Assembly (NCBI RefSeq): GCF_013149295.1
Contig: NZ_JABGCB010000002.1
Coordinates: forward strand, 1 to 64,000
Direction of reading: 5' to 3'
DNA: 64,000 nucleotides
Origin: Novosphingobium sp. SG751A
Lineage (GTDB): Bacteria > Pseudomonadota > Alphaproteobacteria > Sphingomonadales > Sphingomonadaceae
Shown: in pieces, positions 40,646 through 57,296 of the stretch
Layout of the letters: the number at the start of each line of letters is the position of its first letter
Numbering within the stretch: the stretch's first letter is position 1
The notes under the pieces: generated by a model
Seen by the model: only the letters and a program-made list of their open reading frames with translations
Database searches by the model: none
What the model was told of the DNA's origin: nothing
Program-made: the position numbers and the translations under genes

Positions 40646-40678
40646 GCCCCCATGGTTCGCGCCATGGGGGCGTTTTTT
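40646..40678 (+). terminator. Strong intrinsic terminator after TonB receptor
   Basis: GCCCCCATGG (40646-40655) pairs with CCATGGGGGC (40662-40671) around TTCGCG, followed by G and six T. It ends the receptor transcript. The T-run overlaps the qhpE stop codon on the other strand; in that direction the hairpin is present but no T-run follows. Confidence 0.92.
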
Positions 40679-41345
40679 ACAGGGCGGGATGGGAAGATAG
40701 CGCCGCCCGCAGGGCGACGGACGTCTTATGCACCCGCGCCAAAGCCGCGGCAAATCCGCTGGCCTGGGCCACGGCAAAGCTGATGCCATAGAGGTTGCGC
40801 CGTTGCGGCACACCGGGGATTGGCCGGGGATAGCCGCTGGCGACCATCTGTCCATCGCGCCACTGGAATGTCTCGCGCGGAATATCCCAATCCAGCCCCA
40901 CGCCCAAGACACCGGGCAGCGATCCGGGCAGGCAAGGCAGGCCATCGGCCTGCGCGGCGGCCAACACCAGCGCGCCCGGCGCCCCGGCGATGGCTTCGGC
41001 AAACAACGGGGCATGGGCGGCATTGGTGGTGCCAAGGCTGAGGTTGATGATATGCGCGCCTTGCTGCGCAGCGATGCCTATGGCGCTGGCCAAACCCATC
41101 GCGCTGCTGCGCAGGGCATCGTGAAAGACGCGGATGGGCAGGATGTCGGCCTCCGGCGCCTTTTCCTGTATCGCGGCGGTGACGGCGGTGCCATGGCCTA
41201 ATCGGTCGATAGGGATGGCGCCCTGTTCGATGATCATACCATCCGCGCCGATCGCGAAACCGGGGCGCAGGCGGGCCGGGTCGATATGCGGGTGATCGGG
41301 ATGCACGCCGCTGTCGATCACCGCGACCAGAATGCGTTCAGCCAT
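40677..41345 (-). CDS. qhpE: Subtilisin-like protease QhpE, maturation of amine dehydrogenase gamma subunit
   Basis: This 222-residue serine protease has the subtilase triad Asp11 (AVIDSGVH), His51 (GHGTAV) and Ser189 (YGISFAVAQ). It has no signal peptide, so it is cytoplasmic. In Paracoccus denitrificans QhpE removes the N-terminal leader of QhpC after QhpD has made the thioether crosslinks. The gene overlaps qhpF by 8 bases and is last in the operon. The GxSFA motif replaces the usual GTSxA and keeps the catalytic Ser. Position and motifs make the assignment firm. Confidence 0.9.
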   Translation of the reverse strand: MAERILVAVIDSGVHPDHPHIDPARLRPGFAIGADGMIIEQGAIPIDRLGHGTAVTAAIQEKAPEADILPIRVFHDALRSSAMGLASAIGIAAQQGAHIINLSLGTTNAAHAPLFAEAIAGAPGALVLAAAQADGLPCLPGSLPGVLGVGLDWDIPRETFQWRDGQMVASGYPRPIPGVPQRRNLYGISFAVAQASGFAAALARVHKTSVALRAALSSHPAL

Positions 41346-43035
41346 AAGTCGTCATGCCATCTTTCAGGGTAATCACCATGTCCGCCATCGCGGCCAGCGC
41401 GGGCTTATGCGTGATGACGATCAGCGTGGCATGGGGCAGGGCCCGGCGCAGGCCGGCGGCGATCAGCGCCTCGGTATCGCCATCGAGCGCGGCGGTGGGC
41501 TCATCCAGGATCAGCACATCGGGCCGCCGCAACAGCGCGCGGGCCAGCGCCACGCGCTGCCGCTCGCCCGCCGAGAGGGCCAGCCCGCGCTCGCCCACCG
41601 GCGTATCCAGCCCCTGCGGCAGGCGGGCCAGCAAAGCCTCCAGCCCGGCATCATGCGCGGCGGCGATCACCGCATCGTGCCCCGGATCGTTCAGGCCAAA
41701 GGCGATATTGGCATAAAGCGAGGCGTTGAACAGAAAGGGCGTCTGTTCGACCAGCAGCACCGCATGGCGCAGATCGCCCAGCGCCACCTCGCGCAGGTCC
41801 AGATCGCCCAGCATCACCTGCCCGCCATCGGGGTCGATCATCCGCACCATCAGATCGGCCATCGTCGATTTACCCGCCCCGCTGGGGCCGAGGATCGCGC
41901 AGAAGGCCCCCGCGTGTATGGTGAAATCGGCGTCATGCAGCACCGGCGCCCGGCCATGCGAGAGGCGCACGTGATCGAAGCGGATGCTGCAAGGCCCGGC
42001 GGGCAGGGGCAGGGGGCTGGTCGCCTCCTCCACCTCGGGCGCGGTGTCCATCAATTCAAAGATCCGCGCCAGCGCCACGCGCGTCTGGGCCAGCGTGGCG
42101 GACAGGCCGAGCAGGCCCTGAATAGGCGCGAACAGGCGCTGCTGATAGGCGAGGAAGGCAACCAGCGTGCCGATGGTCATGCGCCCGGCGGTGATCTCAT
42201 AGCCGCCCCACAGCATGGCGCCCGCCGTCGAGGCGGAAAGCAGGGTGCCCGGCACCGCGCCGGAGAGAAAGGATGTCACCTGCATCCGCAACATGGCGCG
42301 CACGAAGCCGCCATTGGCGATGGCAAAACGCTCCCGCTCGCGCTCCTGCGCGCCCAGCGTCACCACCGTGCGCATCCCCATGATCGTATCGACCAGCATG
42401 CTGCCAATATCGGCGCCTGCCTCGCGCATTTGCCGCGACAGTTCGGTCAGCCGTTTTTGCGCGCGCAGGAAAGCCCCCACCGCCAGCGGCACCAGCACCA
42501 CGCCCACCACAAACAGGCGCCAGTCGAGCCAGAGCATCAGCGCGATGCTGCCCGCCAGAAACAGCAGATTGGCCAGCGCGGCCAGTAATGTGTCGCCCGC
42601 CACGCGCTGAATATCGGACACATCGCTGTTCAACCGGCTCATCAGATCGCCAAGGCGGAAGCGGCCGAAGAAGCGAGGCGAGAGCTTTTGCAGATGCGAC
42701 AACACCGCGATGCGAATATCAAACAGCATCGCCGCCGAGAGCGAGACATGCAGCCAGCTTGCCGCAATGTTGAGCACATAAGAGCCCACCGTCGCTCCCA
42801 GCATCAGCCCTGCCACGCGCCACAGCACGCCCATATCGTGCCGCATCAACGCGCCATCGATCATCAGCTTGGAAATATAGGGCTGGGCCAGGCTGAGCCC
42901 GGTGGCCATCAGGCTGACCAGCATGACGGCGGGCAGGCGCGGCAGATAGGGGCGCAGATAGGGCCAGAGCCGCCGATAGGCCGCCCATGGCGCAGGAGGT
43001 GGGGAAGCATGGAAAGCGTTATGCGGCGCGTTCAG
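41338..43035 (-). CDS. qhpF: ABC transporter QhpF (exporter of the crosslinked gamma subunit)
   Basis: This fused exporter (565 residues from the proposed start) has six membrane helices and an ATPase domain. The ATPase shows Walker A GPSGAGKS, a signature region LALSAGERQRVALARALL, Walker B VLILDEPTAALDG and switch His in VITHKP. QhpF homologues move the processed gamma subunit to the periplasm. The signature is LSAGE rather than LSGGQ. No ATG or GTG lies before TM1. A CTG at 43035 overlaps the qhpG stop (CTGA) and has GGGAGG 8 bases upstream, so I propose a CTG start; a start at ATG 43119 inside qhpG is the alternative. Confidence 0.85.
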   Translation of the reverse strand: MNAPHNAFHASPPPAPWAAYRRLWPYLRPYLPRLPAVMLVSLMATGLSLAQPYISKLMIDGALMRHDMGVLWRVAGLMLGATVGSYVLNIAASWLHVSLSAAMLFDIRIAVLSHLQKLSPRFFGRFRLGDLMSRLNSDVSDIQRVAGDTLLAALANLLFLAGSIALMLWLDWRLFVVGVVLVPLAVGAFLRAQKRLTELSRQMREAGADIGSMLVDTIMGMRTVVTLGAQERERERFAIANGGFVRAMLRMQVTSFLSGAVPGTLLSASTAGAMLWGGYEITAGRMTIGTLVAFLAYQQRLFAPIQGLLGLSATLAQTRVALARIFELMDTAPEVEEATSPLPLPAGPCSIRFDHVRLSHGRAPVLHDADFTIHAGAFCAILGPSGAGKSTMADLMVRMIDPDGGQVMLGDLDLREVALGDLRHAVLLVEQTPFLFNASLYANIAFGLNDPGHDAVIAAAHDAGLEALLARLPQGLDTPVGERGLALSAGERQRVALARALLRRPDVLILDEPTAALDGDTEALIAAGLRRALPHATLIVITHKPALAAMADMVITLKDGMTTYG

Positions 43036-44036
43036 GTCGCGGCCTCCCGTTCGATCAGTTGAAACCCGCGCAGCAGATAGCGCGGTTCGGGCATATGCGC
43101 GAGCTGCGCGGTGGTCCATGCGTAACCTTGCGCAAGGGCTGCCACCTGTTCGCGCCACCATGGGCCGTCGCCGCCGGTGGCATAGAATTGACCTGAAATC
43201 TGAATATGGCGGCGCAAAGAGGCCGTCAGCATCGAATGGTAATGCGTGGCCAGCGCAGTCGGATCGCCCTTGTGCGCGATCACCGCAGCGGCGAGGATCG
43301 CCTCGCGCACCGATTGCGCGCTGCCATCGCCACAGATAGGGTCAAACGCGATGGCCGACATGCCGCAGGCCAGCCAATCCGGCCCGGCCAGCCGCGCCAA
43401 TTGACGCGGCGCGGTTTCAAACCCCGGCGAACTCTCGCCAAGGCCCGCGATCAGGGGCGCGATCAGCAGGCTGCCCTCCAGCAGGCGCTCCAAGGGCGCG
43501 CCTACGCCCAGCAACCAGCATTGCGCCGGGCAGGAGGGGATCAGAAACAGCCAGCCCTGCGCCACCGCCTCGATATGGCAGCACGCATGATCGGCCCCGG
43601 CCCGCAGCATCACGCGCGCTGCCATCGCCCGCCGCTGGCCAAAGCGCATCAGCGAGGCATCAGGAAAGGGCGGGGCACAATGGAGCGTGGCGACGGGCGC
43701 AAGGGCATCGGCATCGCCCGCCAGTTCTCCGCCCAGCGCCGTGATCAGATCATCCTCGGACACGACCACCGCGCCATGGGGCATGGACAGTGCATCACCG
43801 CCCCAGCGCACCACGCGCCGCGCGATCCGGTGGGCATCGGCAAACAGATCATCCCGCCCAAAGGCATCGCGGATCAGCCCCAGCGCTGCGTCCGAAAGCA
43901 TGATCACCGGCACGGGCGAACGCCGCATCGGCTCATGCCCAATCGCAAACCCCGCGTCGCGCAGCAAATGCGCCGCGCAAGCCCCCGCCAGTCCGCCGCC
44001 CCGGATCAGCACGGACTGGCGCGGCGCTTCGCTCAC
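43032..44036 (-). CDS. qhpG: FAD-dependent monooxygenase QhpG
   Basis: This 334-residue flavoprotein has the dinucleotide-binding start VLIRGGGLAGACAAHLLRDAG and the late FAD motif LACGMSAIAFDPICGDGSAQSVREAI (DPxxGDG type). In characterised systems QhpG hydroxylates the gamma-subunit tryptophan that becomes cysteine tryptophylquinone. It starts with GTG, overlapping the qhpB stop (GTGA). Its stop overlaps the proposed qhpF start. Cytoplasmic by lack of a signal peptide, in keeping with modification before export. Confidence 0.85.
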   Translation of the reverse strand: MSEAPRQSVLIRGGGLAGACAAHLLRDAGFAIGHEPMRRSPVPVIMLSDAALGLIRDAFGRDDLFADAHRIARRVVRWGGDALSMPHGAVVVSEDDLITALGGELAGDADALAPVATLHCAPPFPDASLMRFGQRRAMAARVMLRAGADHACCHIEAVAQGWLFLIPSCPAQCWLLGVGAPLERLLEGSLLIAPLIAGLGESSPGFETAPRQLARLAGPDWLACGMSAIAFDPICGDGSAQSVREAILAAAVIAHKGDPTALATHYHSMLTASLRRHIQISGQFYATGGDGPWWREQVAALAQGYAWTTAQLAHMPEPRYLLRGFQLIEREAAT

Positions 44037-45133
44037 TGGGCGTAAACCAGCCCCGCCATGGTGGCGTCGGCGTCAAGGTTCCACGTCTTGTCCCATTTCA
44101 GCGTCTTGGCGTCATAGACCTCGATGTCATAGCTGGCGCCATAGATGTAGAGCTTCTTGCCATCGCTCGACATGCCGAACTGGAAACGCGAGCGGCAGGG
44201 GAATTCGGCCTTGTCCACCACCTTGTTGGTGCCAAGGTCGAAGTGCCAGATTTCGCAGCGTTTGTTGCCCGTCGTGCCCTGCGTGGTGACGGTATAACCG
44301 TCCTTGCTGTCGGGCGTGATCTGCAGGCCCGCCATCTGATAGGGCGCCGGGCCGATGGGGGTGAAATCGAAGGTTTTCGACGCCAGCTTGAAGCGGCCGA
44401 TGCCAAAGATCTTGTTGTGAATATAGGGATCGGCCGCGGTAAACAGCGAGACATATTCGTCATTGTTGCGCAGCAATTCCACCCCGCCGCCAAAGCTGGT
44501 GTTTTCCAGCCCGGCGCCCTCGGGCTTGGCCATGTCGATGCGGTCCACCACCTTGAAATCGCTGGTGTTGAGGATCACCACTTTGTCGCGGAACAGATAG
44601 AGCAGCTTGCCATCGGGCGAGATCATCATGTTGGCACGCGCGGCGTTGAGCGCATTGTCCTCGTCGGGCAGATCGACGGTCTTCACCACCTTCTTGAGCG
44701 TCAGGTCAATGGTGGCATATTGCCATTTGCTGACCTTGTAGCGGTCGACCGATTTGTCGATCGTCATCATGATCGTATAGAAATACTTGCCCGTCGGATC
44801 GGGCACGCCGCCGGTAAAGCGATATTTGGTGGTCGGCGTGTTCAGGCTGAACTTGTTCAAAACCTTGCGCGTCGCGGTGTCCAGCACCTCAATCCCGCCG
44901 GTGGTGATGGTGGTGACATAGATCCGTTTGTGATCGTTCGACAGGCGCAGCGAGGTGGGCAGGCCGGTGTCGAGCTTGATATGCTCGGCGATCTTGCCGG
45001 TGGTTTCCTCCACCACGAACAGCTTGTCCGGGTAGGTGCCCATCACGATGGGGGCGGCACTTGCGGCCACAGGAGCGGCGGCCAGCAACAGACCGGCCAG
45101 ACGGAAAGGTTTGCCAAAGCGAGAATGCGTCAT
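44033..45133 (-). CDS. qhpB: Quinohemoprotein amine dehydrogenase beta subunit
   Basis: This 366-residue protein has a signal peptide (ending ...APVAASA) and a seven-bladed beta-propeller (repeated strands such as LRLSNDHKRIYVTT, MMISPDGKLLYLF, FGMSSDGKKLYIYG), as in the QHNDH beta subunit. It would complete the periplasmic alpha-beta-gamma enzyme that oxidises primary amines to aldehydes. It follows qhpC after a 53-base gap, the only real gap in the operon, and overlaps qhpG. Confidence 0.92.
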   Translation of the reverse strand: MTHSRFGKPFRLAGLLLAAAPVAASAAPIVMGTYPDKLFVVEETTGKIAEHIKLDTGLPTSLRLSNDHKRIYVTTITTGGIEVLDTATRKVLNKFSLNTPTTKYRFTGGVPDPTGKYFYTIMMTIDKSVDRYKVSKWQYATIDLTLKKVVKTVDLPDEDNALNAARANMMISPDGKLLYLFRDKVVILNTSDFKVVDRIDMAKPEGAGLENTSFGGGVELLRNNDEYVSLFTAADPYIHNKIFGIGRFKLASKTFDFTPIGPAPYQMAGLQITPDSKDGYTVTTQGTTGNKRCEIWHFDLGTNKVVDKAEFPCRSRFQFGMSSDGKKLYIYGASYDIEVYDAKTLKWDKTWNLDADATMAGLVYAQ

Positions 45134-45186: not shown

Positions 45187-45528
45187 TTACGGAAAGATGA
45201 TGTCCAGACTGCGCCAGTCCTTGGCCGCGGCAGAGCAATTGCTGGCCCAATCGGGCGAGTAATTGACATGGTCGGGCACCTGCACCGGCCAGAAGCAGGT
45301 GACATAGCAGTCATAGATGTCACGCTCGACGGGCTGGCAAAGGCCCGCCGTGCCGCCGCTGGCATCCACTTCCCAGCCGGGCGAGAAGGACAGGGTGCAG
45401 CCCATCGGCACATGCGGGCGCACTTGCTGTTGCAGGGCCACGACATCGTCCTGCATGGCCGCAATCTGCGTGTCCACGCTTTCGTCAATCGCCTTGGCCT
45501 TTTGGTTGATGGGGCGCAAATGCTTCAT
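45187..45528 (-). CDS. qhpC: Quinohemoprotein amine dehydrogenase gamma subunit (CTQ-bearing)
   Basis: This 113-residue protein is the catalytic gamma subunit. Every crosslinking residue of the Paracoccus enzyme has its counterpart at identical spacing: thioether pairs Cys44-Glu53, Cys64-Asp70 and Cys78-Asp86, and the cofactor pair Cys74-Trp80 that forms cysteine tryptophylquinone. The leader before the core is about 37 residues (MKHLRPINQKAKAID...QQQV), not a Sec signal, and would be cut by QhpE. The start overlaps the qhpD stop (ATGA). This exact residue match makes it the surest identification of the cluster. Confidence 0.96.
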   Translation of the reverse strand: MKHLRPINQKAKAIDESVDTQIAAMQDDVVALQQQVRPHVPMGCTLSFSPGWEVDASGGTAGLCQPVERDIYDCYVTCFWPVQVPDHVNYSPDWASNCSAAAKDWRSLDIIFP

Positions 45529-46976
45529 GACAGGCCCTTTCTTTCAGCAAACTTTTCGAGGAATTCGGGGTTTTGCACCGCCAGCGTGCCCTGAATTTTT
45601 AGGCACGTATCGGTCCATTCGCGGATCCAGTCGCAATAATGCAGATTGGCGTGACCGGTGTCGCCATAGCGCACGAAGGCCTCGTGATGGCACCCGCCCG
45701 CGCATAAAGGACGCGCCCAGCAGGATTGGCATTCATACTTGGCGCCCACATGGCCCTTGGTCAGGAACTCGCCCTGCGCCTTGCGGTCGATGCCCGATGA
45801 AACATGGCCCATCACATGGCTGTCGGCGTCGGTAAAGCGATGGCAGGGCGAGAGATCGCCCGAAGGGCCGACGCCCAGCAGGCCCAGACCTGCGCCGCAG
45901 GGATGGCTCTTGTTGGTGCCCTGAACCAGCTCGCCAATGGTTTCCGAAACATTGGAAAACCCGTGCATTCGGCCTTTAAGCGCGTAATCGAGCCATTCAT
46001 CGGCCAGTTGGTGGAACTGCTCCAGCACAGTGACCATGCCTTCCTCGCCCAAGGCATAGGCCTGCTCGCCCGATTCCGTGACCGGCGCAAAACCGACCTC
46101 GTGAAAGCCGATATCCTCGCGCAGGTGGCGGAAGATGCTGACCACATCGGTCACGCCCTTGCTCAGCGTCACGCGCGCGGTGATCGCGCGGGTGCGATGG
46201 CGGGCGATCAGCTTGCGCAGCTTGGGCTCGATAACGTCATAGCTGCCCTTGCCGCTCTTATAGACGCGGCGCTTGTCCTGCATCTCCTTGGGACCGTCGA
46301 TGCTGACGGTGACGCCAATCTGCTGGGTCGCGAGAAATTCGATGATCTCGTCGGTCAGCAGCGTGGCATTGGTGGTCAGGCTGAAGGTTATGGTGCGACC
46401 CTGGGCCGTGGCCTGATCCGTGGCATAGGCGACGACCTGCCGCAGCAGCGGAAAGTTCATGAGCGTTTCGCCGCCGAAGAAGGTGATATGCACCGCCGGA
46501 CGCCCGCCCGACTGCGCCAGCAGCAGATCGACCGAGGCCTTGGCCGTGTCGATCGTCATATATTTGGGTTTGCCGTTTGGCGTGGCGATCTTGTCCGCGC
46601 CAAATTCATAGCAATAGGTGCAGGCCAGATTGCACTGGTTGGTGACGTTGAGCACCAGCGCCTGAAGCGGATAATCGCCCTCCGGCTTGGCCGGGGCGGG
46701 GGCTGCCACCGTCTGATCCGAAACGATCACGCGGGCAAGGCGCAGCTCGCGCACCAGATCTTCGGCATCGGCCGCGCTGTAGCCCGAGCCGGTCAGCGCC
46801 GTAACCAGATCGGCATGGGCCATCTCGGCGCTGTCCAGCATGGCCAGCACGTCGCCCACCGCGCCGTCGAGCGCGAAGATCGCGCCAGCCGATACGAGGT
46901 AGATGAAATCCTGCCCCTGTGCGTCAAAGCGGTGGACTTCGCCGCTGCGATAGGTGTGGGTCAAGGGCGCGCTCAT
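45525..46976 (-). CDS. qhpD: Radical SAM/SPASM enzyme QhpD
   Basis: This 483-residue enzyme installs the Cys-to-Asp/Glu thioether crosslinks in QhpC. The radical SAM cluster motif CNLACTYC uses Cys115, Cys119 and Cys122. ITFFGGETLMN is the SAM-binding GGE region. A C-terminal SPASM domain follows with cysteines in HPCGAGLG, SPCHRF, YECQSCWARPLCAGGCHHE and HYCDW. An N-terminal 95-residue region without cysteine probably binds the substrate leader (RiPP-recognition-like). The ATG at 46976 overlaps the qhpA stop (ATGA). Confidence 0.94.
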   Translation of the reverse strand: MSAPLTHTYRSGEVHRFDAQGQDFIYLVSAGAIFALDGAVGDVLAMLDSAEMAHADLVTALTGSGYSAADAEDLVRELRLARVIVSDQTVAAPAPAKPEGDYPLQALVLNVTNQCNLACTYCYEFGADKIATPNGKPKYMTIDTAKASVDLLLAQSGGRPAVHITFFGGETLMNFPLLRQVVAYATDQATAQGRTITFSLTTNATLLTDEIIEFLATQQIGVTVSIDGPKEMQDKRRVYKSGKGSYDVIEPKLRKLIARHRTRAITARVTLSKGVTDVVSIFRHLREDIGFHEVGFAPVTESGEQAYALGEEGMVTVLEQFHQLADEWLDYALKGRMHGFSNVSETIGELVQGTNKSHPCGAGLGLLGVGPSGDLSPCHRFTDADSHVMGHVSSGIDRKAQGEFLTKGHVGAKYECQSCWARPLCAGGCHHEAFVRYGDTGHANLHYCDWIREWTDTCLKIQGTLAVQNPEFLEKFAERKGLS

Positions 46977-48987: not shown

Positions 48988-50040
48988 TCAGGCCGGCTTC
49001 AGCGGCAATTGGCGCAGCCTCTGACCCGTTGCGGCAAAGATCGCATTGGCCAGCGCCGGGATCACCGGGGGCAGCGAGGGTTCGCCAAGCCCGGTGGGCG
49101 GATAATCGGTTTTCAGAAATTGCACCGCGATTTCGCGCGGCACCTGCTCGATGCGGATGAGGGGGAAGTCACCAAAGCTCTCGGCCTGCACCACGCCCTT
49201 CACCTGCTCGATCTTCTGCTCGACCATGCCCTGGCCAAGGCCTTCGTTGACCGCGCCCTGCACCTGATGGCGCGCGTTGATCGGGTTGATGATCTGGCTG
49301 CCGATGTCACCGCAGGCCCAAACCTTGTCCACCCGCACATTCGCGCCGTCGGTGATGGTGACATCCACCACTTCGGCAAAATAGCCGCGATGGCTGAAAT
49401 AGAAGCCAAAGCCGCGCCCGCGTTTCTCGCCCTTGGGGCCGGGGGCCAGCTTGCCGCCCTGCCAGCCCGCCATTTTGCACACGCCGTCGATCACCGCGCG
49501 CGCCCGGCCCGAATTGAGCACTGGCCGCCCCGGCACCACCGCCAGATCGCGCGGCGCCCCCAGCGTGCGGCGCATCAGTTCGGGCAGATCGATCCCGGCG
49601 GCTTGTGCGATTTCGTCCATAAAACTTTGATAGACAAAGGATACCGCATTGGATGTGGGCGCGCGCAGCCAGCCTGTCGCCAGATTGGTCGGCAGATAGG
49701 TGATGCCGATTTCGGAATCGGCCAGCACATTGACCGGGAATTCAAACGGGCTCATCTCCGCCGCGCGGATCGGTTTGCCATCCTTGCCAAAGCTGACGAA
49801 ATGGTCGCGGAAGGCGATCAGATCCCCTTTGGCGTCCAGCCCAGCAGTAAAGCGGTGCCAGCCTGCGGGGCGGTAATAATCGTGGCGCAGATCATCGGTC
49901 CGGTCGAACAGGATCTTGACCGGTTTGCCCGGCAGAGCCTTGGCCACCTGCGCCACCATCACCATGTAATCATTGATCAGCCGTCGCCCAAAGCCGCCGC
50001 CGATCCGCGTCTGGTGGATGGTGATGTCCTCGCCCTTCAT
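48988..50040 (-). CDS. iorB: IorB-like molybdopterin subunit, C-terminal part (split by apparent frameshift)
   Basis: These 350 residues continue the large molybdopterin subunit of an aldehyde/isoquinoline oxidoreductase. They begin MKGEDITIHQTRIGGGFGRRLINDYM; GGGFGRR is a conserved cofactor-domain motif normally internal to the protein. The late region DIGSQIINPINARHQVQGAVNEGLGQGM is also typical. The apparent start codon ATGA overlaps the stop of the preceding ORF. Inserting one G into GG at about 50042-50044 would give ...MLGMKGED and one intact protein. Thus this is either a frameshifted gene (real or sequencing error) or a coupled split gene. See finding. Confidence 0.8.
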   Translation of the reverse strand: MKGEDITIHQTRIGGGFGRRLINDYMVMVAQVAKALPGKPVKILFDRTDDLRHDYYRPAGWHRFTAGLDAKGDLIAFRDHFVSFGKDGKPIRAAEMSPFEFPVNVLADSEIGITYLPTNLATGWLRAPTSNAVSFVYQSFMDEIAQAAGIDLPELMRRTLGAPRDLAVVPGRPVLNSGRARAVIDGVCKMAGWQGGKLAPGPKGEKRGRGFGFYFSHRGYFAEVVDVTITDGANVRVDKVWACGDIGSQIINPINARHQVQGAVNEGLGQGMVEQKIEQVKGVVQAESFGDFPLIRIEQVPREIAVQFLKTDYPPTGLGEPSLPPVIPALANAIFAATGQRLRQLPLKPA

Positions 50041-51170
50041 GCCAACATGGCGGCGGTGTCATTGCGGCCATTGTTCGGCGCCTGACTTGGCGCCCAGATT
50101 TCCAGCTTGCCATCGACCCAGCGGCCCGTGCAATTCTGCGGCTCCAGCGTGCCATGGGCGAGGAAGGGATAGGAGTAGTCCGCCGTGATGGTCTTGACCG
50201 CGCCCGCCAGCGCCTTGGCCACATCGCCGTTTTTGGCGTGTGTAACCTGCGGCCCGGAGGCAAAGGCGGCGGCGGCTTGCCGGTCATAGGCCTCGGTGGA
50301 AAAGCCGACTTGCGCGGCATCGTCCCACGTCACCTTGACCGCCTCGCGCGCATTCTTGGCCGTCCACCAACTGTCGGCCACCACGACCAGCGTGTCGAAC
50401 TTGCCGGGCGCGACCGAATTGCTGTTCACCGGCACCACGGCCAGCACGCCCTTGCGTTTCAGCGCGGCAGCGGGGTCATGGGATGCGATGGTAGCGCCAT
50501 GGGCGGGGGCCTTGATGATCGCGCCATGGATCAGGCCGGGCATATCCACGTCGATGCCGAACAGCGGCTTGCCCTGCGTGATGGCCACCGTATCGACGCC
50601 GATCTTGGACTGGCCGATGATGGAAAAGCGCGAGGGATCTTTCAGCGCCACCTTGGCCAAATCGGGTGCCGTTTCGGAGGCAGCGCCCCGCGCAAAGGCG
50701 GCATAGGGTGCGCTCCGGCCCGAGGCCGCATGGGAAACCTTGCCCGCCGCCGTGGTCAGGCTGCTCGCCTCCACGCCCCATTCCTTGGCCGCCGCACTCA
50801 GGATCATCGCCCGCGCCGCCGCGCCGACCTGTCGCATCGGCAGCCAGTTGTTCGGCGTCGAATTCGACCCGCCCGCGCTTTGCACGCCATAGATCTTGTC
50901 ATTGGCCAGCGTGGGCTCGATCACCACCTGATCCCAGCCCAGATCCAGCTCTTCGGCGATCAGCATGGGCAGCATGGTTCGGATGCCCTGACCGATCTCG
51001 GGGTTCTTGGAGCCGATGACGACCTTGTTATCCGCCCCGATGCGGATGAAGGCATTGAGCGCAACCGCTCCCGGCTCCTGCGCCAGAGCGATCCGCGCCT
51101 CAAATGCCAGTGCGCCAGCCCCCACCAGCGAGGCGGCCATGAAACCGCGACGATCAATAACAGCGCTCAT
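50037..51170 (-). CDS. iorB: IorB-like molybdopterin subunit, N-terminal part (split by apparent frameshift)
   Basis: These 377 residues start with a twin-arginine signal (MSAVIDRRGFMAASLVGAGALAF), as in periplasmic IorB-like proteins, and contain IGQGIRTMLPMLIAEELDLGWDQV and APAHGATIASHDPAA typical of this xanthine dehydrogenase-superfamily branch. The ORF stops after ...IWAPSQAPNNGRNDTAAMLA, just where the family continues into the GGGFGRR motif. The start overlaps the iorA stop (ATGA). With IorA it would form a periplasmic molybdenum hydroxylase acting on an aldehyde or N-heterocycle; beside two amine dehydrogenases an aldehyde substrate is plausible. Confidence 0.8.
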   Translation of the reverse strand: MSAVIDRRGFMAASLVGAGALAFEARIALAQEPGAVALNAFIRIGADNKVVIGSKNPEIGQGIRTMLPMLIAEELDLGWDQVVIEPTLANDKIYGVQSAGGSNSTPNNWLPMRQVGAAARAMILSAAAKEWGVEASSLTTAAGKVSHAASGRSAPYAAFARGAASETAPDLAKVALKDPSRFSIIGQSKIGVDTVAITQGKPLFGIDVDMPGLIHGAIIKAPAHGATIASHDPAAALKRKGVLAVVPVNSNSVAPGKFDTLVVVADSWWTAKNAREAVKVTWDDAAQVGFSTEAYDRQAAAAFASGPQVTHAKNGDVAKALAGAVKTITADYSYPFLAHGTLEPQNCTGRWVDGKLEIWAPSQAPNNGRNDTAAMLA

Positions 51171-51655
51171 GCCGCGTCTCCCGTCACATCGGCCATTCCG
51201 GCTGCTTTCCTGATCGCGCGGCGGATGCGCAGGTATGTGGCGCAGCGGCACAGATTGCCGTTCATCCCCGCGTCGATCTCCTCATCGCTGGGCTTTGGAT
51301 TGGCCAGCAACAGCGCCGTTGCCGACAGGATCTGGCCCGCCTGGCAATATCCGCATTGCGGCACGTCGATCTCGCGCCACATTTCCACCAATTTCGCGCC
51401 TTGCGGCACGGCGCTTGCGCCCTCGATGGTGGTGATCTTATGCCCTGCCGCGGCCGATACCGGGGTCTGGCACGAGCGCACCGCCTGTCCGTCGAGCAGC
51501 ACCGTGCAGGCCCCGCAAAGCCCTTGTCCGCAGCCGAACTTGGTGCCCGGCATCTTCAATTCCTCGCGCAGCACCCAGAGCAAAGGCTTGTCCGCATCGG
51601 CGCTCACGCTGACCGGTTTGCGGTTGATGGTCAGGGCGAATTTTCCTTGGCTCAC
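51167..51655 (-). CDS. iorA: 2Fe-2S subunit of IorAB-type molybdenum hydroxylase
   Basis: This 162-residue protein has both [2Fe-2S] domains of the small subunit: the plant-type ferredoxin motif FGCGQGLCGACTVLLDGQAVRSC and the helical-domain motifs CGYCQAGQI and NLCRCATYLRIRRAI. It transfers electrons from the molybdopterin site of IorB. It starts with GTG at 51655, with AGGAG 10 bases upstream. The gene overlaps iorB by 4 bases. Its promoter region holds both the amine-cluster dyad and a candidate Mo-box. Small subunits of aldehyde oxidoreductases and IorA cannot be separated with certainty. Confidence 0.88.
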   Translation of the reverse strand: MSQGKFALTINRKPVSVSADADKPLLWVLREELKMPGTKFGCGQGLCGACTVLLDGQAVRSCQTPVSAAAGHKITTIEGASAVPQGAKLVEMWREIDVPQCGYCQAGQILSATALLLANPKPSDEEIDAGMNGNLCRCATYLRIRRAIRKAAGMADVTGDAA

Positions 51656-51688: not shown

Positions 51689-51714
51689 CTGGACGCGCTT
51701 CAAGATTTCGTCAA
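51686..51714 (-). promoter_or_regulatory. iorA promoter with shared dyad operator
   Basis: On the minus strand TTGACG (51714-51709), 17 bases and CAGTAT (51691-51686) form a good sigma-70-like promoter about 30 bases before the iorA start. The 14-mer TTGAAGCGCGTCCA (51703-51690) ends on the first two bases of the -10, in the same register as the qhpA and aauB elements. The divergent TetR gene starts at 51783. Confidence 0.65.
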
Positions 51715-51782: not shown

Positions 51783-52451
51783 ATGGATCTATCGGAAGAC
51801 ATCGTCAGCACCGCGCGCCCCGGCACCTACTCGCGCGGGACAGAGACGGTGGACGCGATTTTGAAAGCAGCGCTTGGCGTGCTGATCGACGAGGGCGCGG
51901 CGGCCTTTACCATCCGGCGAATCGCGGCGGCCTGCGGGATGAAGGTGGGCAATGTCTCCTATCATTTCCCGCGCAAGGAAATGCTGGTTCAGGTGCTGCT
52001 CGATGAATTGCTGGCTTCCTATGAAAAGGTGCTGGAGGACCGGGTGCGCCAGCCCGACCTGACCACCGAGGAGCGGCTGCGGCTGCTGATCGTGATTTGC
52101 CTTGAGGATATTGCGGGCAAGCGGACCACGCGCCTGTTCACGGAACTGTGGGCGCTGGCCAATCACAATGATTTCATCGCCGACCGGGTGCGCGGTTTTT
52201 ATCAGCGGGTACATGATTTCATTGGCGAATATGTCGCCGCGCTCAATCCCGCGCTCTCGGCGGACGAGGTGCGCACGGTGGCCATCTATATCAGCGCCAG
52301 CATGGAGGGCTCGACGCCGTTTCTGGGCTTTGAAAAGCCATGGGCCGACCGGATGCCAGCCTATACGTCAATTGCCGCCCATGCGCTTGTATCGCTTGCC
52401 AAAACGATCACTTCGCGAGAGATTGCCGGAATGACAAGCCAGACGGCCTGA
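51783..52451 (+). CDS. TetR-family transcriptional regulator
   Basis: This 222-residue protein has a TetR helix-turn-helix (FTIRRIAAACGMKVGNVSYHFPRKEMLVQVLL at about residues 40-72) and an all-helical C-terminal ligand domain. The ATG at 51783 has AAGGAG 11 bases upstream. It is divergent from iorAB and precedes the MFS and TTQ amine dehydrogenase genes, so it is the obvious local candidate to control the three shared promoter elements (qhpA, iorA, aauB). The inducing ligand might be an amine or aldehyde; that is inference. Confidence 0.87.
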   Translation: MDLSEDIVSTARPGTYSRGTETVDAILKAALGVLIDEGAAAFTIRRIAAACGMKVGNVSYHFPRKEMLVQVLLDELLASYEKVLEDRVRQPDLTTEERLRLLIVICLEDIAGKRTTRLFTELWALANHNDFIADRVRGFYQRVHDFIGEYVAALNPALSADEVRTVAIYISASMEGSTPFLGFEKPWADRMPAYTSIAAHALVSLAKTITSREIAGMTSQTA

Positions 52452-52520: not shown

Positions 52521-53738
52521 ATGCGTCGGACTTTGCTTGCAGAGCAGGATGGCTGGGCATTGGGGCTGGGCTGGGGGCGTGCGCGTGGTTGCGCCTTGCC
52601 GGCGGCGGCGGTGCTGGGGTGTCTGCAACCGGCGATTGATCCGGTGTTCCTCACGCTGCTCTCGCTGGCCACGCCTTTGCGCGTCGCCGATCATGGCTGG
52701 GTGGTGGGCATGACCCAAAGCGCTTCGGCGTTGGCGGCAATGATGGTGTGGTGGCTGGGGCCAAGGATGCCGATGCGGGCTGTGATGGCGCTGGCGCTGG
52801 GTGCGATGGCGGCGGGTCTGCTGACGCCGCTGGCGCAGGGGTTGGCCGGATTGCTGGCGCTGCGCGGGATCTATGGGCTGGGGATGGGGGCCGTCTATGC
52901 CCGCGCGATGGGGGGCTTTGCCGCGGCGCGGCCCACGGGCGCCTATGCCATTGTCCTGCTTGTGCAATTGATGCTGGCCACGCTGCTCTCGCTGGCTCTG
53001 CCCGATCTGGCCGCAACGATTGGGGCGGGGCGGGCGCTGGGGCTGTTGGCGCTGGTGCCGCTGGCGGCGGCGGTGGCTTTGCGCTTTGCCCGCGAAGGGG
53101 GCGGCGCGCGCGTCATGCCGGTGGGTGATGGGGCCACGCCGCGCGCGGGCTGGGCGCTGGCGCTTGCCAATTTCTGGTTCATTTGCGCGACGATGATGGT
53201 GTGGAGCCTGTGCGGCGCACTGGCCGTGCAGGCCGGGCACAGCGAGGGGCTGATCGGGCGCGCGGTGGCGATCGGTTCGTTGGCGGGGGCGGCCACGGCG
53301 ATTGCGGTGATGCGCGAGAGGTTGCGCGTGCCTTTGCCGGTCACGGCCTGTCTGGTGGGGGCGGCCCTACTGGCCCCGCTGGTGCTGACGCGGCCCGGCG
53401 CTGGGGCCGGTTTCGTGCTGGCGATGGTCCTGCTTAATGTCGGGTCCACCGCGATCATCATCCGCTGCTCGGGTCTGGCCAGCGCCTTGGGGTTGGGGCC
53501 GCGCTTCCGGGTCTTTGTGGCAGCCACGCATAATCTGGGGATGAGCGCGGGGCCCGCGCTGGGGTCGGGAATGCTCTGGGTGATGCCGGATGGGGGATTG
53601 CTGCTGGGCGCGGGGCTGGCGGTGCTGGCCGGGGTGGGCGCGGTTGTGATAGGCTGGCGTGGTTTACGCCATTGTGCGCATTGGCCATTGTCGCGCCCGG
53701 TTTTCGCACGATTGGGCCATCAGAAGGGGCTTGATTAA
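52521..53738 (+). CDS. MFS transporter
   Basis: This 405-residue protein is almost entirely hydrophobic with about 12 predicted helices and the overall length of a major facilitator permease. RGIYGLGMGAVYARAMGGFA and the repeated Gly/Ala-rich helices fit drug/metabolite MFS carriers; a canonical loop 2-3 motif is weak. ATG 52521 has AAAGGGGGC upstream. It lies between the TetR gene and the amine dehydrogenase genes, so it may carry an amine, an aldehyde or the acid product. Its last codons overlap the aauB promoter element. Confidence 0.7.
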   Translation: MRRTLLAEQDGWALGLGWGRARGCALPAAAVLGCLQPAIDPVFLTLLSLATPLRVADHGWVVGMTQSASALAAMMVWWLGPRMPMRAVMALALGAMAAGLLTPLAQGLAGLLALRGIYGLGMGAVYARAMGGFAAARPTGAYAIVLLVQLMLATLLSLALPDLAATIGAGRALGLLALVPLAAAVALRFAREGGGARVMPVGDGATPRAGWALALANFWFICATMMVWSLCGALAVQAGHSEGLIGRAVAIGSLAGAATAIAVMRERLRVPLPVTACLVGAALLAPLVLTRPGAGAGFVLAMVLLNVGSTAIIIRCSGLASALGLGPRFRVFVAATHNLGMSAGPALGSGMLWVMPDGGLLLGAGLAVLAGVGAVVIGWRGLRHCAHWPLSRPVFARLGHQKGLD

Positions 53739-53759
53739 TTCTGGACACTCGTCCAGCCT
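53731..53759 (+). promoter_or_regulatory. Candidate aauB promoter with palindromic operator
   Basis: TTGATT (53731-53736), 17 bases and CAGCCT (53754-53759) follow the same plan as the iorA and qhpA elements. Within it CTGGAC-ACTC-GTCCAG (53741-53756) is a perfect 6-bp inverted repeat, the most symmetric copy of the shared dyad. It overlaps the MFS stop codon and lies about 100 bases before aauB. Confidence 0.5.
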
Positions 53760-53859: not shown

Positions 53860-55026
53860 ATGTCTCGCCACACTTCGCAAGCTTTCGCCCTTCGTGCCGC
53901 TATGATGCTGATCGGAACGGCGCTGGCTTCTTCTGGCGCGCAAGCCGCCGTGCCCACCGAGCCCGAAACCCCCAATGTCGCAACGCTTGCCTCGCCCAAT
54001 CCGGGCTGGTTCTATGTGCGCGGCGGGTTTGATACGGCGGGCACCCAGATCGTGGACAGCGCCACCGGCAAAATGGTGGGCATGGTCGACACCAGCCGCA
54101 CATCGGATATGGCGGTCGATCCGGCGGGCAAATTCTATTACGTTTCTGAAACGATCTGGAGCAAGGGCAACCGGGGGACGCGGCAGGACCTGCTGAGCAT
54201 CTATGACGCCAACAGCTTGAAACTGCAGACCGAGGTGCCGTTTCCGGGCCGTCTGATCATTGGCGCGCAGGTCAATAATTTCGCGATCTCGCCCGATGGC
54301 AAGAGCGCCTATATCTTCAACCTGACGCCGGCCGCGTCGGTCAATATTGTTGATCTGGGCAAGCGCAAATTTGCTCGCAATGTCGAATTGCCGGGCTGCG
54401 CGGGGCTGATGCCGATTTCTGAAGGGTTGGTGTCGGTCTGTTCGGATGGCTCGCTGGCCTCGCTCAACCTGTCGGGCGGCAAGGCCGAGATCACCCGCAG
54501 TGCGCCTTTCTTTTCGGCCACCAATGACCCGGTGTTTGACGCCTATAACTATTCGGTCAAGCGCAAGGAGGCGGTGTTCCTCAGCTATACCGGGCTGATC
54601 TATATGGCGAAAATCGGACTGAAGCCCGAAGTCGCCGCGCCCTTTTCCATTCAGGCCGCCGCAGGTCTGCGTCCCGGTGATACCAAGCCGCTCGATGTCA
54701 ACTGGCTGCCCGGTGGGCGGCAGTTGACCGCATGGCATCATGCCAGCAACCACCTCTATGTGCTGATGCATATGGGCGAATTCTGGACCCAGAAGGATGC
54801 GGGCGAGGAAATCTGGGACGTGGATCTGTCGGCCAAGAAGGTGGTCAAGCGCTTCCCGCTGGAGGATCACATCGACAATATCGAGGTGACGCAGGGGGAA
54901 AAGCCCAAGCTCTTCGTCAATACCGGCAAGAATGACGGCTACATCCTCGATCTGGCGACATGGACGCTGGGGCCGAAAATCGGCGCGATTGGCGGCGGCA
55001 TTATCGCCACGGTCGAGGCGCCGTGA
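53860..55026 (+). CDS. aauB: TTQ-type amine dehydrogenase large subunit (aromatic amine / methylamine)
   Basis: This 388-residue protein is the heavy chain of a tryptophan tryptophylquinone amine dehydrogenase. It has a signal peptide (ending ...SSGAQA) and a beta-propeller with DTSRTSDMAVDPAGKFYYVSETIWSKGNRGTR, typical of MauB/AauB. It pairs with AauA in the periplasm to oxidise a primary amine to an aldehyde. The ATG at 53860 has AGGAGGG about 10 bases upstream; a longer in-frame reading to 53659 overlaps the MFS gene and lacks a signal. The stop overlaps mauE. I favour the aromatic amine type because of AauA residue numbering and the downstream cytochrome. Confidence 0.88.
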   Translation: MSRHTSQAFALRAAMMLIGTALASSGAQAAVPTEPETPNVATLASPNPGWFYVRGGFDTAGTQIVDSATGKMVGMVDTSRTSDMAVDPAGKFYYVSETIWSKGNRGTRQDLLSIYDANSLKLQTEVPFPGRLIIGAQVNNFAISPDGKSAYIFNLTPAASVNIVDLGKRKFARNVELPGCAGLMPISEGLVSVCSDGSLASLNLSGGKAEITRSAPFFSATNDPVFDAYNYSVKRKEAVFLSYTGLIYMAKIGLKPEVAAPFSIQAAAGLRPGDTKPLDVNWLPGGRQLTAWHHASNHLYVLMHMGEFWTQKDAGEEIWDVDLSAKKVVKRFPLEDHIDNIEVTQGEKPKLFVNTGKNDGYILDLATWTLGPKIGAIGGGIIATVEAP

Positions 55027-55601
55027 TGGCTGCGCTTCTGGCGACATTGCTGACGGGCTTTGGCATCGGGGCGGGGTTGATCTTTGCCTTTGCCGGGCTG
55101 GGCCATTGGCGACATCGGCGCCTGCTGGTCGGGGTTGTCGGCAATTATCGCCTGTTGCTCGATGGGCTGATCGCTCCCGTGGCGGGGCTGTTGCCATGGG
55201 GCGAAATGGCGATTGGGCTGGCTCTGGTGATGGCGCCTTTTGCGGCGGGGGTTGGGCGCGCCGGTGCGCTGGCGGGTGGCGGTTTGCTGCTGCTGTTCGG
55301 CTGGGCGATGGCGGTCAATCTGCGGCGCGGACGCGGCTTTATCGATTGCGGCTGCGGCCATGCGGAATTGCGTCAACCGCTTAGCTGGATGCTGGTGGCG
55401 CGCAATCTGGTGCTGGCGCTGCCCTTGCTGGCTTTTGCCGCGCTTGGTCCGGTTTTGCCCGACGGCATGGCGCTGATCGCCGCGATGGTCGCGGGGCTGG
55501 CGGTATGGTTGGGCTATCATTTGTTCAATGCCTTGGCGGCGCTGCAATCCAGCCCGCTTTCGGCCAGTCTGCATCCCATTCGGCTTCCCACTCGGAGATA
55601 G
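55026..55601 (+). CDS. mauE: MauE-like membrane protein for TTQ subunit maturation
   Basis: This 191-residue membrane protein has about five hydrophobic helices and a cysteine cluster FIDCGCGHAELRQPLSWMLVARN, typical of MauE. MauE and MauD are needed for export, folding or disulfide formation of the light chain, which has 14 cysteines here. The ATG at 55026 overlaps the aauB stop (TGATG). It lies 4 bases before mauD. Confidence 0.87.
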   Translation: MAALLATLLTGFGIGAGLIFAFAGLGHWRHRRLLVGVVGNYRLLLDGLIAPVAGLLPWGEMAIGLALVMAPFAAGVGRAGALAGGGLLLLFGWAMAVNLRRGRGFIDCGCGHAELRQPLSWMLVARNLVLALPLLAFAALGPVLPDGMALIAAMVAGLAVWLGYHLFNALAALQSSPLSASLHPIRLPTRR

Positions 55602-55605
55602 AGCC

Positions 55606-56205
55606 ATGATCCTTTCGCTGGTCATTTCACAGGTTGTTTCGTGGCTGGTCATTGCCGGGCTGGTGGTGGCGCTGCTGGCGCTGGCGCGGCAGGTGGGCGT
55701 TTTGCATATGCGCGTGGCGCCTGCCGGTGCGCTGACCACGGCGGGCGGGCCTGCGGTGGGTTCGGGCAGCCCGGTGATCGAGGCCAATGATCTGAACGGT
55801 CGCCATGTCCATATCGGCGGCCCGGCCAAGGACAAGCCGCTGCGCTTGCTGATGTTCGTGTCGGCCATGTGTCCTTTGTGCAAGGGGCTGATCCCGGTGG
55901 CCAAGAGCTTTGCCAAGGATGAGCGGCTCGACCTGACCTTCATCGGCGACGATGATGCGGCAACCCAGCGCAAGCTGATCGCGCAGCAGGGGCTGGAGGC
56001 CTATACTTTCGTCAATGGCCCGGATGTGGGTCAGGCCTTCGCCGTGGGCAAGCTGCCCTATGCGGTGCTGATGGATGCCGATGGGGTCGTGCTGTCCAAG
56101 GGGCTGGTGAACAGCCGCGAGCATCTTGAGAGCCTGATTATCGCTCATGAGATGGGCGTGAAGAGCGTGCAGGACTATATCGCTTCGCTCAAGGTCGTCG
56201 GCTGA
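55606..56205 (+). CDS. mauD: MauD-like thioredoxin-fold protein
   Basis: This 199-residue protein has one N-terminal membrane helix (residues 1-25) and a periplasmic thioredoxin-like domain with the redox motif CPLC in FVSAMCPLCKGLIPVAKSF. It ends with a conserved cis-Pro loop region KLPYAVLMDADG. It probably forms or shuffles the disulfides of AauA. The ATG at 55606 has GGAGATAGA upstream. It is required in known mau/aau systems. Confidence 0.9.
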   Translation: MILSLVISQVVSWLVIAGLVVALLALARQVGVLHMRVAPAGALTTAGGPAVGSGSPVIEANDLNGRHVHIGGPAKDKPLRLLMFVSAMCPLCKGLIPVAKSFAKDERLDLTFIGDDDAATQRKLIAQQGLEAYTFVNGPDVGQAFAVGKLPYAVLMDADGVVLSKGLVNSREHLESLIIAHEMGVKSVQDYIASLKVVG

Positions 56206-56238: not shown

Positions 56239-56781
56239 ATGAAACTGTTCAATCCCGATGCCGCCGCCGAAAAGCTGCTGCGCCGCTTTGCCGGGGGCAC
56301 ATCGCGCCGGGGGATGCTGGCGCGCCTTGGCGGGGCGCTGGTGGCCGCGCCTGTGTTCCCGCTGCTGCCCGTCAGCCGCGCCGGGGCCGCCAAGCCCGAC
56401 CGCAGCCCGGAGGCCAAGACCGCCTTTGCCCGCAAGGCGCAGACGGTCGATGACACCAAATGCGATTACTGGCGCTATTGCGCGATCGACGGGGCGCTGT
56501 GCTCATGCTGCGGCGGGGGCATCCACACCTGCCCGCCGGGCGCGGAATCCTCGCCGGTGTCATGGGTCGGCACCTGTATGAACCCCGAGGACGGCAAGGC
56601 CTATATGATCGCCTATCGCGATTGCTGCGGCAAGCCGATGTGCACCCAGTGCATGTGCGACAATCAGGACCGCGAAACGCCGCTCTATGTGCCGCAGCTC
56701 AACAATAACATCATCTGGTGTTTCGGCACGCAGAGCATGGAATATCACTGCTCGACCGCGGTGATGGTGGGGCCGGCCTGA
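56239..56781 (+). CDS. aauA: TTQ-type amine dehydrogenase small subunit
   Basis: This 180-residue light chain carries the tryptophan tryptophylquinone cofactor. Trp109 (VSWVGTC) and Trp160 (NNIIWCFG) are 51 apart, as the crosslinked pair always is, and Asp128 (YRDCCGK) matches the catalytic base. These three numbers equal those of aromatic amine dehydrogenase. Fourteen cysteines surround them, fitting the disulfide-rich fold. The N-terminus is a long twin-arginine signal (TSRRGMLARLGG). ATG 56239 has GGGGG upstream; a TTG two codons earlier is possible. It lies 2 bases before the cytochrome gene. Confidence 0.94.
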   Translation: MKLFNPDAAAEKLLRRFAGGTSRRGMLARLGGALVAAPVFPLLPVSRAGAAKPDRSPEAKTAFARKAQTVDDTKCDYWRYCAIDGALCSCCGGGIHTCPPGAESSPVSWVGTCMNPEDGKAYMIAYRDCCGKPMCTQCMCDNQDRETPLYVPQLNNNIIWCFGTQSMEYHCSTAVMVGPA

Positions 56782-56783
56782 GG

Positions 56784-57296
56784 ATGAAAGTAGCGCGGTG
56801 GATCGGGGCCGGCGCTTTGCTGACGCTGCCTTGGCTGGCGGCGTCGGTGTCGGCGCAGGCTGATCCGGCAAAGGGCATCAGCGATCCTGACCTCGCACGG
56901 TCCGATTTTATCGAGCATTGTGGCGGGTGCCATGGGCCGGACGGGCGCTCGGCGCCTGCCGCTTTGCCTGAATTGCGGGGTAGGGTGGGCTGGCTGATGT
57001 GTACACCCGCCTCGCGTGCCTATCTGCTGCGCCTGCCCAATATCGCGCATAGCCGGATCACCGATAATGCCGAGCTGGCCGATATGCTCAATTATATGGT
57101 GTTCGTGGTGGGCGGGGATAGCGCCCCTGTGGGCACCCGGCCTTTTACCGCCGAGGAAGTAACCCGCGAAAGGGGGCATCCTTTGGTCTCAGGGTCCCTG
57201 ACAGCCGAGCGGGCGCAGCATGTGGGCGAGGCGATCCGGCAGTGTCATGCGCCGGTTTCGCTGCGGCTGAACTATCCTGGCGAGAAGAAGGGGTAG
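56784..57296 (+). CDS. Periplasmic monoheme c-type cytochrome
   Basis: This 170-residue protein has a signal peptide (ending ...SVSAQA) and one heme c motif, CGGCH at 46-50. It ends the amine dehydrogenase operon. The Alcaligenes faecalis aau cluster, as I recall it, also has a small monoheme cytochrome gene right after aauA and no mauG. The protein may accept electrons from the enzyme or take part in TTQ biogenesis; it is not a diheme MauG-type protein (one CxxCH only, too short). A late Cys-His (RQCHAPV) lacks the second motif cysteine. Confidence 0.85.
   Translation: MKVARWIGAGALLTLPWLAASVSAQADPAKGISDPDLARSDFIEHCGGCHGPDGRSAPAALPELRGRVGWLMCTPASRAYLLRLPNIAHSRITDNAELADMLNYMVFVVGGDSAPVGTRPFTAEEVTRERGHPLVSGSLTAERAQHVGEAIRQCHAPVSLRLNYPGEKKG

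Follow-up and report, generated by a model that had tools for sequence, protein, structure and literature searches.

Two types of amine dehydrogenase with protein-derived quinone cofactors are well known: the quinohemoprotein amine dehydrogenase (QHNDH), which contains cysteine tryptophylquinone (CTQ) and is encoded by qhp genes, and the dehydrogenases containing tryptophan tryptophylquinone (TTQ), which are encoded by mau genes (methylamine dehydrogenase; MADH) or aau genes (aromatic amine dehydrogenase; AADH). We know of no mauG gene in the aau (AADH) cluster of Alcaligenes faecalis. According to PMC7876137 (Nat Commun 2021), the qhp operon occurs in over 1300 species and has an n-butylamine-inducible regulator. 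That paper also draws a contrast between QhpG and MauG, whose superfamily is treated in PMC6405878; the term "aromatic amine" is absent from the text of PMC7876137. The qhp genes of Methyloversatilis are upregulated approximately 10-fold on methylamine (PMC5023235), and Novosphingobium KN65.2 carries mauBEDA, which may or may not be of the subfamily described here, without growing on methylamine (PMC8292978); this bears only indirectly on a preference for aromatic amines. We analyzed positions 1 to 64,000 (here called the window) of contig NZ_JABGCB010000002.1 from the 5.73-Mb genome of Novosphingobium sp. SG751A (GCF_013149295.1). A qhp set and a TTQ set lie side by side in this window and, on sequence evidence, very probably form one TetR-repressed regulon for periplasmic primary-amine oxidation. 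In the open-access literature (most subscription papers were outside the scope), no work joining the CTQ and TTQ systems was found, and a full-text search for aauB returned nothing related, as judged by title. Each enzyme type is known; the combination of both with their proposed common control appears to be new.

The locus (40677 to 57296) is bounded exactly by the stop codons of qhpE and a cytochrome gene. Its minus strand carries qhpADCBGFE and a molybdenum (Mo) hydroxylase operon, and its plus strand carries the tetR gene, a major facilitator superfamily (MFS) carrier gene, and aauB-mauE-mauD-aauA-cytochrome (Table 1). All of these genes had been named in a preliminary description of the DNA, and all are present. 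Two corrections apply: the gene for the Mo large subunit is divided between two frames, and aauB most likely begins at 53860, where AAGGAGG precedes the start, and not at 53659, where the open reading frame (ORF) opens.

Compared with the qhp operon of Paracoccus denitrificans and Pseudomonas, the locus contains what appears to be the same A-B-C-D-E-F-G set, a CTQ precursor with C74/W80, and a QhpD of the same family. QhpA, QhpC, and QhpD exceed their NCBIfam cut-offs and QhpE falls marginally under its own. When QhpC of the window is aligned with 13 others, residues C74 and W80, which we take to be the Cys/Trp pair of CTQ, do not vary (14 of 14 sequences). In contrast to the known operon, QhpB and QhpG are far below their family cut-offs; profiles of their relatives match 1jju_B and 7ctq, respectively, and they appear to be divergent but recognizable qhp proteins, with the S-layer propeller 1l0q outscoring the QHNDH beta subunit in the QhpB comparison. 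Also different are a promoter-like site shared with the TTQ enzyme and a TetR gene that takes up the control position (no search was aimed at a qhpR-type regulator). Two other genomes depart from this pattern. The qhp set of G478 (L202 3260-11234; QhpC 81% identical) has no TetR, site, or TTQ light-chain match and represents a natural exception. In G403 (L206 13160-14031), the qhp set is reduced, with the start of qhpA fused into the end of qhpB and the sites kept; no qhpD or qhpC matches were found in this remnant.

The TTQ set has the gene order of the aau cluster on a plasmid of Pseudomonas aeruginosa RW109 (B-E-D-A-cytochrome), including a Met-less monoheme cytochrome. In both, neither mauG nor an amicyanin gene is among the genes identified nearby (family scans, in the case of the window). 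The two light chains are 43% identical; the Pseudomonas cluster has a second, Met-type cytochrome that is missing here, and the set described here, unlike the Pseudomonas cluster, adjoins TetR, Mo hydroxylase, and qhp genes. The mau cluster of P. denitrificans PD1222 has the TTQ heavy and light chains, MauE, and MauD in common with the window, whereas amicyanin, MauG, MauJ, MauF, and MauR are not among the genes identified here and both chains are below the MADH equivalog cut-offs (light chain, 193.2 versus 196.85 bits, i.e., <4 bits short; heavy chain, 148.8 versus 454.45 bits). AauA residues W109, W160, and D128 are the same in all 14 light chains compared (the window and 13 others); we assume that, as in AADH, they are the TTQ tryptophans and the catalytic Asp. 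With IorAB-type Mo hydroxylases, the third enzyme shares a [2Fe-2S] subunit and a Mo-binding large subunit, but here its promoter-like site is shared with two amine dehydrogenases and its large-subunit frame is broken. Elsewhere in Novosphingobium, a second TTQ subfamily (L078 6188-9805 and weaker matches; light chain approximately 50% identical) adjoins a 44% identical TetR relative and a different palindrome (L078 6901). The light chain at L066 15815-16354 does not have two of the cysteines (C91 and C135 in window numbering), as if one disulfide had been lost.

The palindromic site and the TetR gene

A 16-bp palindrome (CTKGAC-N4-GTCMAG) follows a -35-like TTGA upstream of qhpA in 14 loci, including the window, with variations. 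We built a position weight matrix (PWM) from these 14 qhpA promoters, leaving out the tested locus. The three highest-scoring places in the window were the promoters of qhpA, the Mo operon/tetR, and aauB (Table 1), and the next place scored 7.2 bits; the maximum in 60 random 20-kb sequences was 14.3 bits. In other loci, the matrix likewise picked out the equivalent promoters. A -10-like stretch after the palindrome was seen by eye in several relatives, although that of the window is a poor match to the consensus. The position of the palindrome between these two elements is the arrangement expected for a repressor.

The occurrence of the site was counted at three scales. Allowing at most one mismatch, the pattern occurs at only three places in the 5.73-Mb genome (i.e., the same three promoters), and the reversed control pattern does not occur. 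For wider comparisons, we used 396 genomes of the order, 119 Novosphingobium genomes, and 377 genomes of the family (the order and genus samples overlap). The Novosphingobium genomes contain 102 places (60 exact and 42 with one mismatch), and 57/60 and 27/42, respectively, are within 9 kb of qhpC or the TTQ light-chain gene. The remaining three exact sites are <2 kb from a TetR gene in fragmented drafts; the 15 one-mismatch sites elsewhere are similar in number to the matches of the reversed pattern (approximately 23 by our own count) and were taken as noise. In the family sample, which consists mostly of other genera, 16 exact sites were found in 12 genomes, all beside aauB, tetR, or qhpA (5 within Novosphingobium and 11/11 outside the genus), and the control gave none. 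TTQ light chains scoring at least 175 bits have a site nearby in 32/44 cases and weaker ones in 1/31, with the split chosen by eye after viewing the list. Two TTQ loci of another subfamily reached 8.4 (L075) and 15.0 (L078) bits, no higher than or just above the random maximum.

The distribution of the TetR gene matches that of the site. Among the Novosphingobium genomes, those with an exact site have the TetR gene in 36/36 cases, those with the TetR gene have a site (at most one mismatch) in 43/43 cases, and those with qhpC have the TetR gene in 35/36 cases. The site is also shared in trans, as it stands before both enzyme sets in all five genomes examined in which the sets are unlinked. A matrix derived only from the five qhpA sites of such genomes again placed the same three window promoters on top and ranked the aauB site, read on one strand of the palindrome or the other, first in 5/5 unlinked TTQ loci (16.8 to 22.0 bits, against a mean of 8.8 and a maximum of 14.7 bits in 100 random 20-kb sequences). 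The concordance of site and TetR, together with this sharing in trans, makes a single TetR regulon very probable. Another regulator might bind the palindrome, or the palindrome might simply mark a strong promoter type, with TetR controlling only itself and the carrier; the conservation of the -35-like element and of bases upstream would fit this explanation. However, a common promoter should recur in the genome, where no further copy exists, and TetR and the site share their distribution over 119 genomes, so that we regard this alternative as very unlikely.

Linkage, co-occurrence, and the proposed regulon

In the order sample, the TTQ light chain is present in 44 genomes and qhpC in 32. Within the family of the window genome, 14 genomes of this sample carry qhpC: both sets are at most 12 kb apart in 7, lie apart in 5, and no light-chain match was found in 2. 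Among the 119 Novosphingobium genomes, qhpC is present in 36, the light chain in 45, and both in 28, including 11 in which a single contig carries the linked sets no more than 20 kb apart. The two genes co-occur far more frequently than expected (light chain in 28/36 genomes with qhpC versus 17/83 without; Fisher P = 5e-9, kinship ignored). A scan of public genomes for AauA-type proteins, with the best 80 of 584 relatives kept and flanks of at most 10 kb fetched, revealed 16 loci with qhp genes within the flank, one of which (L125) is a remnant. The preliminary description had suggested searching other sphingomonads for the gene combination, and the adjacency indeed recurs in Novosphingobium and Sphingobium in at least four arrangements: (i) the two sets divergent on either side of tetR, Mo genes being present or absent (window, L062 to L066, L123, L143, L158, and L204); (ii) qhp 3' of the cytochrome gene in the same direction (L067/L155, L157, L163, L188, L203, and L220); (iii) qhp and tetR codirectional, with qhp first (L127); and (iv) qhp approximately 6 kb further downstream and convergent (L137, L148, and L156). 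In L073, L074, and L205, which have no TTQ light-chain match, tetR and the carrier gene directly precede qhp.

The two sets could be mere neighbors brought together by chance rearrangement or on a transferred catabolic island, with no common control, and it is true that at least half of the genomes with qhp do not have the sets linked (linked, 7/14 in the family and 11/36 in Novosphingobium). This explanation is largely refuted by the site standing before both sets even when they are unlinked; the different adjacent arrangements, the site-regulator concordance, and the even G+C content (0.64 in the window, 0.64 in qhp, and 0.63 in aau) also oppose it, leaving it extremely unlikely. Chance adjacency in particular was rejected on the basis of the shared site, the co-occurrence, and the family-wide distribution of the site. 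The "dedicated amine-catabolic island" of the preliminary description is supported in part, by conserved linkage and co-occurrence, with one regulator and operator set joining the modules even where they are unlinked. These findings count against both of the refutations named in that description: that the two dehydrogenases are never co-expressed, and that the neighborhood is a chance rearrangement conserved in no relative.

A harder alternative is that the sets are coregulated but serve two pathways, with one general signal inducing two enzymes for different amines and nothing but the promoter logic in common. The substrate ranges of QHNDH and AADH overlap but differ, and each set exists without the other (17/45 light-chain genomes do not have qhpC, and 8/36 qhp genomes have no light-chain match). 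Against this, either set is found with the same regulator, in many cases also with the same carrier, and in some with the same Mo enzyme. We consider two pathways a serious possibility, if one that we lean against.

For the single regulon, we propose that the TetR/BetI-type repressor would bind the palindromes at the promoters of qhpADCBGFE, the Mo operon (divergent from tetR), and aauBEDA-cytochrome, and that an amine, or its aldehyde or acid, would release it. The CTQ and two-heme enzyme and the TTQ enzyme would then convert amines to aldehydes in the periplasm, where c-type cytochromes would accept the electrons. Where it is intact, the Mo/[2Fe-2S] enzyme would oxidize the aldehyde to the acid, which the MFS carrier may import. 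We infer the role of TetR as binder and repressor, the promoter elements, the inducer, the division of labor between the enzymes, the aldehyde step, and the direction of transport. The keeping of two enzymes may reflect different amines, affinities, or electron acceptors.

Several observations weigh against this proposal. The pattern was derived from these very promoters, which makes finding it there partly circular; the same does not hold for its absence elsewhere. The exact pattern also skips true loci such as G146 (L073, one mismatch). The qhpA sites of L063 and L066 carry one extra base, the Mo-operon site is weak or absent in the unlinked loci L077, L079, and L080, and 12/44 light chains of at least 175 bits have no site nearby, at least one of which (L075) belongs to another subfamily. 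The TetR counts are based on the first 40 residues of the protein; the 43 do not include five genomes whose matches were all weaker (43 to 58%). The promoter elements were read by eye; a consensus scan of 48700 to 54000 found no sigma-70 promoters (0.7 expected) and three terminator-like elements, nothing more than chance would give, and thus lends the promoter reading no support. With respect to the gene sets, the qhp genome G478 has neither TetR nor the site (best score, 6.9 bits), and the qhp genes of G403 are reduced to remnants though the site remains. In 17/36 Novosphingobium qhp genomes the two sets stand apart or fall on different contigs, and 8/36 have no TTQ light-chain match; contig breaks probably explain some cases of both kinds (among the former, e.g., G488). 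Finally, the window itself has no intact frame for the Mo large subunit.

The cytochrome and TTQ formation

The last gene of the TTQ set encodes a cytochrome, presumably of the aau Orf-2 type. Of the best 80 among 584 AauA-type relatives, 78 have this gene after aauA; the contigs of the other two end at aauA. The protein has one CxxCH in 170 residues, in contrast to the two hemes of MauG-type proteins. Its family is nearest in sequence and fold to Thermus cytochrome c552 (profile, 1.4e-18; VIA Z 10.4, 110 residues, root mean square deviation 2.7), although the best match by Foldseek alone had an E value of 0.023 (1c52). The alignment with c552 skips a stretch between two matched parts, which we take to be the loop carrying its Met ligand. 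No conserved sixth ligand was found in 72 sequences (the best Met column after the heme motif reached 47 and the best His column 43), whereas R78, P85, A99, N103, and R130 are invariant in all of them.

One role for this protein, to which we assign about an even chance, is that of electron acceptor of the TTQ enzyme in the place of amicyanin, with no part in making the cofactor. It occupies the position of amicyanin, whose gene is right after mauA, and its closest match, c552, is an electron carrier. The missing sixth ligand and c552 ligand-loop stretch count against this role, as does the Pseudomonas aau cluster, which holds this Met-less protein plus an adjoining cytochrome with Met in the usual place. 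A catalytic role, suggested by sequence comparison, is plausible but not proven: we tentatively raise the possibility, with rather less confidence than doubt, that the Met-less cytochrome is the TTQ maker of aau-type clusters and a one-heme substitute for the diheme MauG. If so, one regulon would produce two tryptophan-derived quinones by two unrelated routes, i.e., a radical S-adenosylmethionine (SAM) enzyme and a flavoprotein for CTQ and a monoheme oxidase for TTQ.

The presence of MauG was judged by similarity to P. denitrificans MauG (1e-3). The TIGR03791 cut-off was rejected as a test: 0/119 genomes pass it, but true P. denitrificans MauG itself falls far short (97 versus 444). At 1e-3, no match was found in 31 of the 45 Novosphingobium genomes with the light chain, 20 of which are at least 99% complete. 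The other 14 have matches that are 34 to 45% identical, none within 90 kb of the light-chain gene on the same contig. Such relatives look unconnected with TTQ, yet not avoided (14/45 genomes with the light chain versus 22/74 others; Fisher P = 1.0, kinship ignored). The only CCP_MauG-family gene found in the window genome, located on another contig, best fits the MbnH type, with a score below the cut-off of that model. An MbnH/MauG-type diheme protein gene (G000:C28:20504-21286), on a contig other than that of the TTQ genes, adjoins a TonB-receptor-like frame. Of 31 plasmid records with a TTQ light-chain match, the cytochrome lies within 0.7 kb in 13 and MauG is present (1e-40) in 13 others; no record has both, and 5 have neither. 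MauG was not found at 1e-40 in two mauA records (Indioceanicola and Methylobacterium DM1), and the cytochrome was not found at 1e-5 in two non-mau records (Haematobacter and P. aeruginosa NZ_CP115216). Among 24 plasmid matches to MauG, 11 are on records without a TTQ light-chain match (10 Azospirillum and 1 Comamonadaceae).

Accessory genes and meaning of the locus

In this assembly, the reading frame of the Mo large subunit has a break at about 50037-50040. In G474 and G468 (L200 and L201), whose proteins of this region are approximately 89 to 100% identical to those of the window (except for a TonB-receptor fragment at 81%), this stretch forms a single frame of 2262 bases without stops, and the frame runs straight across the junction in 8/8 other relatives. 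A naturally two-gene large subunit is ruled out by these single frames, and the interruption is either a frameshift or an assembly error. Of 20 mapped stretches, 8 contain Mo genes, and of these, 2 carry both enzyme sets, 5 the TTQ set alone, and 1 qhp alone; the Mo enzyme is a frequent, not constant, partner of the amine dehydrogenases.

The carrier has no Pfam or NCBIfam match. Its model has an MFS fold, and the best matches (6hcl/6zgs) are of an MFS transporter solved with aromatic acids, making a monocarboxylate importer possible. A TonB-receptor homolog occurs in 12 of 13 other mapped qhp stretches, up to approximately 4 kb from qhp, and this receptor, as an outer-membrane step, may belong to the system; the operator-like match before it in the window (37709) is within the random range (7.2 bits). 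In Sphingobium and some Novosphingobium, a second monoheme cytochrome is divergent from tetR (L148 4918-5391, L205 11136-11435, and L074 15570-16001), with the palindromic site between the two genes in L148 and L074; it is perhaps the acceptor of the Mo enzyme. Outside the locus, a CHAD/CYTH ORF of 1086 amino acids (60174-63434, minus strand) overlaps an AAA_33 gene (61896-63443, plus strand), and its first half is probably noncoding.

Table 1. Features of the locus and its flank in window coordinates, with the evidence for each assignment
Feature	Position	Strand	Evidence or remark
TonB-dependent receptor	37917..40607	+	PF00593/PF07715; convergent with qhpE; probable member (outer-membrane uptake)
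qhpE, subtilisin-like leader protease	40677..41345	-	NF049966, 164.3 bits (cut-off 165); PF00082
qhpF, ABC transporter	41338..43161	-	PF00664, PF00005; operon position
qhpG, flavoprotein tryptophan dihydroxylase, divergent	43032..44036	-	NF049967, 49 bits (cut-off 240); profile vs 7ctq, 5.7e-6
qhpB, QHNDH beta propeller, divergent	44033..45133	-	TIGR03907, 63 bits (cut-off 223); profile vs 1jju_B, 1.2e-9
qhpC, QHNDH gamma subunit, CTQ precursor	45187..45528	-	PF08992, 1.3e-37; NF037958, 144 bits (cut-off 50)
qhpD, radical SAM thioether maturase	45525..47000	-	TIGR03906, 662 bits (cut-off 453)
qhpA, QHNDH alpha subunit, two CxxCH	46973..48814	-	TIGR03908, 599 bits (cut-off 274)
Operator/promoter-like site before qhpA	48852..48877	-	PWM, 30.3 bits, own locus left out
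Mo hydroxylase large subunit, second fragment	48988..50040	-	PF02738, PF20256; continuous with first fragment in L200, L201
Mo hydroxylase large subunit, first fragment	50037..51251	-	PF20256, PF02738; frame interrupted at its end
Mo hydroxylase [2Fe-2S] subunit	51167..51655	-	PF01799, PF00111
Operator/promoter-like site between Mo operon and tetR	51689..51714	-	PWM, 34.7 bits
TetR/BetI-type regulator, proposed switch	51783..52451	+	PF00440, PF13977; genome-by-genome concordance with site
MFS carrier, possible monocarboxylate importer	52521..53738	+	AF2 model, pLDDT 84; best PDB folds 6hcl/6zgs, E 2.5e-8
Operator/promoter-like site before aauB	53731..53756	+	PWM, 26.3 bits
aauB, TTQ dehydrogenase heavy chain	53860..55026	+	PF06433, 5.8e-43; start from ribosome-binding site
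mauE/aauE	54960..55601	+	PF07291, 1.2e-16
mauD/aauD	55528..56205	+	TIGR02661, 175 bits (cut-off 189)
aauA, TTQ dehydrogenase light chain	56239..56781	+	PF02975, 1.5e-53; twin-arginine-like leader (by eye)
Monoheme c-type cytochrome, no conserved sixth ligand	56784..57296	+	Acceptor or candidate TTQ maturase

This conserved locus is probably a regulon governed by one repressor and containing two unrelated enzymes with protein-derived quinones. The system is present in the type strains Novosphingobium nitrogenifigens DSM 19370 and Sphingobium fontiphilum DSM 29348. It would provide a natural setting in which to compare CTQ and TTQ chemistry in one cell under one switch, and it reduces TTQ formation in mauG-less clusters to a one-gene question.

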